A stretch of DNA of 64,000 nucleotides, taken from contig NC_019676.1 in NCBI RefSeq assembly GCF_000316625.1, positions 2,202,501-2,266,500 on the forward strand. The letters are read 5' to 3'. Origin of the DNA: Nostoc sp. PCC 7107. GTDB lineage: Bacteria > Cyanobacteriota > Cyanobacteriia > Cyanobacteriales > Nostocaceae. The notes under the pieces are model-generated. The model did not search any database. It had not been told where the DNA came from and saw only the letters and a program-made list of their open reading frames with translations. This document shows, in pieces, positions 22,227-26,010 of this stretch. The translations under genes and the position numbers were made by a program. Each line of letters opens with the position of its first letter. Within the stretch, counting starts at the first letter, position 1.

Positions 22227-22697
22227 GTGATGACGAAACTGAATTATTGTTTCGCATAGCATCAAATATGCGATCGCACTTCTCATAGGCAGATAAAATT
22301 TTTGAACTACCTGACTTTTTTGGTTGATACGCTTGTAAATTAAGCCCTTTTATGGAATGAAACAGCCCTGCTTCTTTCTTGATACTAGACTGGCGATTCC
22401 CAATTCTGTATAAGCCTTTAACCACCTTTGTACTGTGGCACTTCCTCTTCCCAACACTACCGCTAAATCTTGTATTGTCCTTACCTGACCTATTTTCAGT
22501 AAATACAATGCTTGAATACGTTCTTTTCCTAATGCTGTTTTCTGTTTTTTCAGCAGTTCACGTAATTCCTCTGCTGACTCTTCTATTTTTACTTTGGTGA
22601 CTCCAGCCATGAACTTCTGCTCATATTTCTGACTTAACTATTTCTATCATTTTTTTAGTGAAATGGTATTACGTTATTTTTGCGTAAGTCCTGTCTT
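22227..22697 (-). mobile_element. IS630-type element, transposase end only
   Basis: The minus-strand helix-turn-helix frame at 22350-22610 is the N-terminus of an IS630-type transposase. The element end is the inverted-repeat piece TTTTTGCGTAAGTCCTG at 22677-22693, 67 bases beyond the start codon, as expected for an IS630 terminus. Everything beyond the HTH (the DDE domain and the other end) is missing, and a GNAT gene now abuts it. The inner boundary is uncertain; I place it near 22345. Confidence 0.6.
22350..22610 (-). pseudogene. IS630-family transposase, N-terminal helix-turn-helix fragment
   Basis: 86 codons: MAGVTKVKIEESAEELRELL, a helical segment with KERIQALYLLKIGQVRTIQD, and the recognition region GRGSATVQRWLKAYTELG. 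This is the HTH_29/winged-helix start typical of IS630 transposases. After about codon 75 the sequence leaves the family pattern and stops. No DDE catalytic domain is present downstream, so the gene is broken. The segment after the break (22168-22345) reads as unrelated frames overlapping the acetyltransferase 3' end. Confidence 0.8.
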
Positions 22698-24015: not shown

Positions 24016-24045
24016 GTAGGATGTGTTACCGCTAACACATCCTAC
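24016..24045. repeat. 13-bp stem palindrome GTAGGATGTGTTA
   Basis: GTAGGATGTGTTA pairs exactly with TAACACATCCTAC across the loop CCGC. It lies between the methyltransferase start side and the end of the 117-aa gene. GTAGGATG-type palindromes are among the most frequent dispersed repeats of Nostoc-type genomes. It may end transcription of the 117-aa gene. Confidence 0.7.
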
Positions 24046-24081: not shown

Positions 24082-24435
24082 CTAATAACCATTTTTATCT
24101 AAGAGCGTTTCAAATTCAGCTTGTAAAGCCGTAATATCTGCAAGTCTAGCTACAACTAAATTATTCTGTCCAGCGTCACTTAAACGTGCTTTCCAATATT
24201 GAATACTGTCTGAATGATTTACCCAAAACTGAATTACTGTGTCTACTACTTGATCTAAATCCCATCCCCATTTTGCTGTTACAGGTTCCACTGTTTCTAT
24301 AAACGCATCTAGTGTACATATATGTGTTCCAAGATATTCCACAGCTAGATACAGTGGTTTTTGCACATTCTGTTGTTGATGATTAAAAAACTGCAAAACC
24401 GGAGATATGCCGACAATATCAAAAGTATACTTCAT
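24082..24435 (-). CDS. 117-aa protein of unknown function behind a CIRCE operator
   Basis: The start is set by GGGAGG eight bases before the ATG. The protein begins MKYTFDIVGISPVLQFFNHQ and has no signal peptide, membrane segment or known motif; it is acidic and probably mixed alpha/beta, with Trp-rich WGWDLDQVVDTVIQFWVNH in the middle. The important feature is upstream: a perfect CIRCE site (24570-24596), which in cyanobacteria normally controls groESL and groEL2 through HrcA. This gene is the only one that reads away from it. It is therefore probably heat- or light-inducible under HrcA, a role known from chaperonin genes but not, as far as I know, for this protein. Confidence 0.78.
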   Translation of the reverse strand: MKYTFDIVGISPVLQFFNHQQQNVQKPLYLAVEYLGTHICTLDAFIETVEPVTAKWGWDLDQVVDTVIQFWVNHSDSIQYWKARLSDAGQNNLVVARLADITALQAEFETLLDKNGY

Positions 24436-24569
24436 TGAGTTCCTCCCAACATTTCACTACTTACAAGGAGATTTAGCTTGTGATAATTATGGCTTGTGAA
24501 GGTCTCATATCATCTCTAAAAAATAGCATATTTTTGCTTCATATCTGAGGAAATAAACTTATTTGTTTA

Positions 24570-24596
24570 TTAGCACTCCTCAGCTTAGAGTGCTAA
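24570..24596 (-). promoter_or_regulatory. CIRCE element (HrcA operator)
   Basis: TTAGCACTC (24570-24578), nine spacer bases, GAGTGCTAA (24588-24596): an exact match to the CIRCE consensus TTAGCACTC-N9-GAGTGCTAA. Reading on the minus strand, a possible promoter (TTGATA, then TATGAT after a short 14-base spacing) ends just before it, and the 117-aa gene starts 135 bases after it. No groES or groEL is within the window. Confidence 0.93.
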
Positions 24597-24764
24597 TTTA
24601 AATCATATTTAATGGCTGCTCTATCAAAGAGATTCCGGCATTTTTTTAAGAAATAATCTGTTTTTAATAATTTTTCAATTTTTACCTTTTAAGGCTCGGA
24701 TATTGGCAATTGCTGGCTGGCAAAATGATGTAGTTGGAGTATTAGAGGTAAATAAATGCAAAAA

Positions 24765-24831: not shown

Positions 24832-26010
24832 TTAAATCACAGCATCTTTGACTTTACGTTTTTTTAAGAAATTGGACATAAATGGCCGCTCAAAGAATAA
24901 GTAAAACCAATAAGCAATGATGAGTGACATTGCTGTGCCGAGTAAATAGGATGCAGCAGCAAACATATCTGGTGAAATTGGTAGATAGAACAAAAAGTAA
25001 CGTACAAAAACTAGAACTGGCCCATGAGTTAGATATAAGCTATAAGAAAATGTACCAAGTGCGATCGCCAAAGGATGTTCTAATATCCGTAGTACTAAAG
25101 ATGGCGGTTTCCCTTCAACTATCGACTTGGTTAAGGCAATAAATAGACAAGCAAATGCAAGACCAGCAAAACTCTGATTAATCCATATATGCAGTCCTAG
25201 TCTTCGCCACTCTGTGATAAAGGCTACACAAGTAAAGATGATAGCCAGCCCACCCCAAGGTAGAGAATTTCTCATAGCTACTAGCCGAGGCTTCTGGGAA
25301 AATCCAATATCTGCGGCTGCCATTCCTAAACAGAATATGCCTAATAGCCAAGGATTGGCTTGTTCCATAAATCCATTGAACAAGTATACAGGTATTAACC
25401 CAATAGCAAAGGCGATGATGACAAGCATCAACAGTCCAAAACACCGCCATATAGGCAACAATAATAATGGAAACAAAAAGTACATTTGCCATTCTGTGGC
25501 AATACTCCACATGGGTGGGTTGATAGTAATGTATGTATGTTCACTAAAGTTGTGAACTAATAACAAGTGAGTGATGATATCAACCCAATTAAATTTAGGG
25601 TCAAACGAGCCTAACCCTGCCACTTTATCCCATTTAAAACTTGTAAACTGCTCGCAGATAAAAACAATTCCTCCTATTAGTAGGCAGATAAATAAAGCGA
25701 TGTAGTAAGGGGGTAAAATTCGCCGCGATCGCCTCTTGAGATAATTAATCAAACTTCCTTGTAGCTTACCATCTTGAGAACGCACTACTGGCAGCATTAA
25801 AACATAGCCAGACAGCACAATAAAACTAATAACACTAAACGCACCATATTTCATAACTCTCACAAATATAAACCAATGAAAAGGCAATTGTTCTGTGATT
25901 GCAGGTTCAACATGAACAAGTACTACGTATAGCGATGCTAATCCACGTAAGCCATCTAAATAAGGAAGATGAAGCCGCTTCTGGGTAGAGTTTTCTGTAA
26001 TTTTAGTCAT
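24832..26010 (-). CDS. Acyltransferase 3 family membrane protein
   Basis: 392 aa, about ten membrane segments. The N-terminus carries the family signature PYLDGLRGLASLYVVLVHVEP, with the conserved His in the first membrane segment (LVHVEP), followed by IRRRILPPYY-type sequence (RRSRRILPPYYIALF) after the second. The C-terminus ends in FERPFMSNFLKKRK. Family members O-acetylate (or acylate with other groups) cell-surface sugars, for example the OafA type. The substrate is unknown. It has a good terminator. It stands alone, but wecB and the nucleotidyltransferase fusion show that surface polysaccharide genes are present in the region. Confidence 0.93.
   Translation of the reverse strand: MTKITENSTQKRLHLPYLDGLRGLASLYVVLVHVEPAITEQLPFHWFIFVRVMKYGAFSVISFIVLSGYVLMLPVVRSQDGKLQGSLINYLKRRSRRILPPYYIALFICLLIGGIVFICEQFTSFKWDKVAGLGSFDPKFNWVDIITHLLLVHNFSEHTYITINPPMWSIATEWQMYFLFPLLLLPIWRCFGLLMLVIIAFAIGLIPVYLFNGFMEQANPWLLGIFCLGMAAADIGFSQKPRLVAMRNSLPWGGLAIIFTCVAFITEWRRLGLHIWINQSFAGLAFACLFIALTKSIVEGKPPSLVLRILEHPLAIALGTFSYSLYLTHGPVLVFVRYFLFYLPISPDMFAAASYLLGTAMSLIIAYWFYLFFERPFMSNFLKKRKVKDAVI

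Follow-up and report, generated by a model that had tools for sequence, protein, structure and literature searches.

A CIRCE operator ahead of a small gene points to a probable third HrcA target in cyanobacteria

The HrcA operator CIRCE is tied in cyanobacteria to the groE genes, according to the consulted portions of published work (PMC2662882, PMC4755962, PMC7760821, PMC5381637, PMC8400943, PMC2758279 and PMC4227741). The stretch of 64,000 nucleotides from the genome of Nostoc sp. PCC 7107 analysed here (hereafter referred to as the window) carries an exact copy of this operator ahead of an open reading frame (ORF) for a protein of 117 amino acids. The locus raises the question of whether this small gene is an unrecognised member of the HrcA heat-shock regulon or whether the operator was left behind by a lost groEL, the two possibilities named in an earlier, sequence-only reading of the same DNA. 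A microarray analysis of an hrcA mutant, as related in the available part of a review (PMC7760821), hinted at further HrcA effects that do not involve CIRCE. In the portions of the literature covered by our search, which included PMC7734504, no CIRCE gene of such a kind was recognised; the hrcA papers of Nakamoto (2003), Singh (2006), and Rajaram and Apte were outside the scope of the search. Here we report a comparative analysis of the operator and the gene. The comparison of genome sequences makes it very likely that the 117-aa gene joins groESL and groEL2 as a third conserved HrcA target in cyanobacteria. The same operator–gene pair recurs in many near and very distant relatives, and the gene is thus probably an overlooked heat-shock partner.

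The operator, the gene and its product

The operator has no mismatches and the 9-9-9 layout, as the sequence-only reading had described it, and a search with up to three mismatches found it to be the only such place in the window, where shuffled sequences lead us to expect 0.02 (Table 1). The 135 bp measured from its edge (24570) to the ATG (24435) is the distance that had been given, and the ribosome binding site that had been called strong is present; an alignment of 34 relatives has the consensus gGAg at its position. The 117-aa gene was also said to be the only one that reads from the operator, and we found no ORF of at least 60 aa starting rightwards between CIRCE and the upstream neighbour, an ORF at 24832–26010 on the same (minus) strand that looks acyltransferase-like by eye. 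The inverted repeat lies 37 bp past the stop codon, between the 117-aa gene and a methyltransferase-like ORF. The fold predicted for the region between the operator and the start codon is not significant (z = −0.80).

Table 1 Features of the operator locus in window coordinates
Feature	Position	Strand	Basis
13-bp perfect inverted repeat with a 4-base loop, possible transcript end	24016..24045		by eye
117-aa ORF with ATG start, no Pfam or NCBIfam match; predicted order strand, helix, strand, three helices, strand, helix	24082..24435	-	ORF list, searches, model
Operator-to-start-codon region, probable leader; its A/T-rich blocks are weakly conserved	24436..24569	-	alignment, profile
Shine–Dalgarno sequence GGAGG, six bases ahead of the ATG	24442..24446	-	sequence
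CIRCE operator TTAGCACTC-N9-GAGTGCTAA, exact	24570..24596		sequence; also upstream of orthologues
A/T-rich promoter-like stretch on the operator's far side, conserved in blocks	24597..24675	-	alignment and profile of relatives

Two minor features accompany the locus. A small palindrome-like block lies about 20–30 bp downstream of the operator (24536–24553); it is degenerate in the window and reads CCTAT-N3-ATAGG in a number of Nostocaceae. Further along, at 22350–22610, a short ORF resembles by eye the N-terminal helix-turn-helix (HTH) part of an IS630-type transposase, and is perhaps a remnant.

Searches of Pfam and NCBIfam with the 117-aa protein returned no match up to an E value of 10, in line with the earlier statement that it has no known motif. 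A single-sequence search detected relatives in 162 of 199 genomes, counting the Nostoc genome itself, and a profile search detected them in 81 of 292 genomes sampled over the phylum. One match, in genome G016 (24% over 54 residues), is probably spurious, as the profile search is blank there. A confident AlphaFold2 model computed from 78 relatives (pLDDT 90.2, pTM 0.80) yields the order of strands and helices listed in Table 1, and a comparison with solved folds revealed no convincing relative.

Perfect CIRCEs number three in the complete genome (6,329,823 bp), one each at groESL, groEL2 and the 117-aa gene. The next best places have three mismatches. The sequence-only reading had named groESL and groEL2 as the genes known to have such operators in cyanobacteria, and the other two perfect copies do adjoin these genes, at 19 bp from the groES match and 33 bp from the groEL2 match. 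Matches to Cpn60 occur at these two places alone, with no third match in the genome at an E value of 0.001, a threshold that very short remnants could escape; together with the lack of a Pfam match for the 117-aa protein, this bears out the claim that no chaperonin accompanies the third operator. The genome encodes HrcA (PF01628, E = 2.7e-60), as do 198 of the 199 genomes searched, this one included.

Occurrence of the operator before orthologues and elsewhere

To describe close relatives (61–91% identity), we used the best 80 of 85 loci found (L037–L116), each with up to 4 kb of flanking sequence per side, and counted as CIRCE-like any site with at most 3 mismatches in 18 positions. Such a site lies within 600 bp upstream of the gene in 79 of these 80 loci, the exception being a metagenome-assembled Symploca genome (L115). 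Each of the 79 loci has one to three sites; all 110 sites fall in the upstream 600 bp, and the rest of the 636,955 bases contains none. The best site has no mismatch in 6 loci, one in 52, two in 20 and three in 1. In family f1, the operator is present in 30 of 30 loci (L005 and L008–L036, which include the window itself; the weak matches L006 and L007 were left out). These two sets partly overlap and are therefore counted apart. Among the best 80 of 85 loci, 48 have a divergent and 31 a co-directional ORF of at least 100 aa as the nearest upstream neighbour, and 1 has none; the downstream ORF is on the opposite strand in 46, on the same strand in 31 and absent in 3, and one ORF, a transporter by eye, recurs on the opposite strand in 39. 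Since the orientation of the neighbours varies and the operator stays, the operator follows the 117-aa gene family.

The genes that carry the operator were mapped in 25 Nostocaceae genomes, picked for having the gene and at least three sites, with the pattern TTAGCACT-N11-AGTGCTAA and all 16 bases exact. These genomes contain 77 such sites, and the 75 that were listed and placed comprise 28 at groES, 25 at groEL2, 22 at the 117-aa family (in 21 genomes) and none elsewhere. Placement relied on tblastn for 59 sites and on coordinates adjoining a family gene for 16, and is loose for two of the groES sites (L241 and L283, with groES 865 and 1231 bp off). Of the 24 genomes listed in full, 21 combine sites at groES, groEL2 and the gene; G015, G027 and G039 have their third site at groES and no exact 16-base site at the gene. 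As a control, the pattern read backwards gave no match in all 25 genomes, nor in all 120 of a wider set. A tally of genomes with at least three sites (43 of 96 with the gene versus 0 of 24 without; Fisher P = 6.6e-6) was compiled by hand, with G016 and genomes outside the match list taken as gene-less; we set it aside because the third site of G015, G027 and G039 is at groES.

The sites at the gene differ from the groE sites at one position. Of 79 gene sites from the best 80 of 85 loci, 18 retain G19, versus 54 of 55 Nostocaceae groE sites, the two of the Nostoc genome included, and the other arm positions of the gene sites are kept in at least 68 of 79. At groES, the inner C9/G19 pair is missing from one site (L246). 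As the gene sites are mostly without G19 and the groE sites have it, the affinity of HrcA at the gene may be lower, and the systematic loss of one operator base here, not at groE, provides a natural test of HrcA affinity tuning. Furthermore, two or three sites stand in a row in 24 of the 79 loci, spaced by 44–46 bp in 29 of 31 cases. Tandem CIRCE-like repeats were seen 140–390 bp upstream of the gene in L086, L087, L101, L104, L107 and others, and the upstream copies often end in ACTGCTAA, not in AGTGCTAA.

In other lineages the occurrence is patchy. In other families of the order, 12 of 48 loci, some of them from genus mates, have a site with at most 2 mismatches within 700 bp, a count made without L171, which is not a true homologue, and without the family-f1 loci L157–L159, all of which have sites. 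Among further loci, a site is present in 3 of 17, all in family f36 and 259–352 bp upstream, one of the three being a gene fragment at a contig end; this count omits the family-f41 loci L212–L214, each with a symmetric variant, which in one case departs from the consensus by 4 mismatches. On a tree of 106 proteins (with L170, L171 and L215 left out, and seven f41 rows added whose detection had relied on their sites), the presence and absence of the site needs 13 changes, and well-supported branches force 3. Orthologues lacking CIRCE sites had been named in the sequence-only reading as what would speak against a regulon member. Such orthologues exist outside the close relatives and f41, where 36 of the 48 and 14 of the 17 loci lack a site, and they speak in part against a regulon member.

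Family f41, which we take to be Cyanobiaceae, has small genomes (1.3–3.9 Mb among those listed). Its proteins are homologous to the window family over nearly their full length (hhalign probability 98.6, E = 6.5e-16). The phylum profile search found the gene in ten f41 genomes, all ten with a symmetric CIRCE variant upstream, and a profile built from these ten then found the gene in 29 of 101 f41 genomes, five of the 29 being among the ten. With at most one mismatch, the 12-base core of CIRCE is present in 24 of the 29 homologues, 112–134 bp ahead of the start, and absent from the other five; elsewhere in 95,549 f41 bases it does not occur. The outer three arm bases vary, often with both arms changed together (for example, TCAGCACTC/GAGTGCTGA, CTGGCACTC/GAGTGCCAG and TTGGCACTC/GAGTGCCAA), and all nine arm pairs are symmetric in 15 of the 24. 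This two-fold symmetry, kept despite differing outer bases, is as expected if a symmetric dimer reads the f41 sites. All seven f41 groES sites examined have the TTGGCACTC arm, which suggests that groE sites drift similarly, and in each of G332, G399 and G414 the groES site differs from that of the gene. The search for CIRCE before orthologues, proposed earlier as a check, thus returned the operator in 79 of the best 80 of 85 loci among close relatives and in 24 of 29 loci in this distant family.

Predicted control and alternative explanations

The locus resembles the CIRCE/HrcA control of cyanobacterial groESL and groEL2 in that the operator is the same, hrcA is present and the operator lies upstream of the start codon. 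It differs in that the target is not a chaperonin, in the distance of the operator from the ATG (135 bp, versus Nostocaceae medians, taken to the matched start, of 19 bp for groES and 33 bp for groEL), and in the gene sites themselves, which in most Nostocaceae are without G19 and sometimes stand in tandem.

An operator that is a relic of a lost groEL or groESL copy, idle for the 117-aa gene, appears extremely improbable. An additional site linked to groES occurs in some Nostocaceae (L246 and, with a looser link, L241 and L283), from which it follows that CIRCE-bearing groE copies have been gained and lost; however, the site precedes the same gene in nearly all close relatives (79 of the best 80 of 85 loci) and in 24 of 29 distant homologues, no Cpn60 match lies near the window, and 21 of the 24 genomes listed in full contain all three kinds of site, at groES, groEL2 and the gene. 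The relic reading is contradicted because the operator is conserved with the 117-aa gene family while the neighbours change and because there is no third Cpn60 match, and this half of the earlier alternative is abandoned. By contrast, its other half, an unrecognised member of the predicted HrcA regulon, is strengthened by the counts in close relatives, in f1 (30 of 30) and in f41. A role of the site at a divergent neighbour, in place of the 117-aa gene, is likewise scarcely credible: the nearest upstream ORF (at least 100 aa) is divergent in 48 of the 80 loci and the transporter-like ORF lies opposite in 39, but the upstream ORF is co-directional in 31 of the 80 and in the window, and the operator is constant as neighbours differ.

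The nature of the site and of the protein bears on two further readings. The Nostocaceae gene site TTAGCACT-N11-AGTGCTAA could be a weaker HrcA site or a site of another regulator, so that control would be unlike that of groE, as the rarity of G19 (18 of 79, versus 54 of 55 at groE) and the regularly spaced tandem sites (24 of 79 loci; 44–46 bp in 29 of 31 cases) might suggest; we judge this unlikely, given that full CIRCEs or dyad-symmetric variants are present in the window, its genus, some distant families and f41, and that the other arm positions are kept in at least 68 of 79 sites. The protein, for its part, shows a weak, short profile match to Escherichia coli YbaQ (E = 1.8e-4, profile positions 32–93, three helices), and 22 of 78 members match PHROG 1381, 'plasmid antitoxin with HTH domain', weakly and partially (best E = 3.4e-4). 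In this respect it is like the HigA/YbaQ-type HTH antitoxins, and might be a relative of HigA-type antitoxins that acts on DNA and is heat-regulated by chance. This reading as a whole is very unlikely, because the shared part is short, the matched helices sit between strands in the predicted mixed alpha/beta order, and no HigA/HTH_3-type family is among the 19 weak Pfam matches (up to E = 1) of the 78 members; the antitoxin matches nevertheless serve as a lead.

With the 117-aa gene as a probable HrcA target, control can be pictured by analogy with HrcA/CIRCE elsewhere and with cyanobacterial groE. HrcA bound to the operator at the promoter would block transcription of the gene; upon heat, unfolded proteins would occupy GroEL, HrcA would lose activity and the small protein would rise with the chaperonins. 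The derepressed transcript would carry a leader no longer than about 150 nt. The regulatory company of the gene points to protein-quality control, and weakly suggests, by association only, that the protein serves its chaperonin branch. Whether this family forms a dedicated component of the chaperonin circuit from Nostoc to f41, either as a heat-induced GroEL partner (a client adaptor or cycle regulator) or in HrcA feedback, is a more doubtful matter, and we put it forward tentatively. A third CIRCE gene, conserved together with its operator in very distant cyanobacteria, would open a way to a new protein of this circuit. The gene is small and apparently forms a single-gene unit, which opens heat induction, dependence on HrcA and thermotolerance to direct tests.

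Two genomes deserve separate mention. G023 (L159), of 3.8 Mb, has the gene and no hrcA match, and the other 198 genomes have hrcA; it would be a natural test case if this absence is real. Its gene site has 2 mismatches and is shared by its genus mate G071, which has hrcA, so the G023 case says nothing on HrcA dependence. In G127 (L170), the gene seems truncated, with a match to residues 1–48 in a 65-aa frame, yet its CIRCE is perfect.
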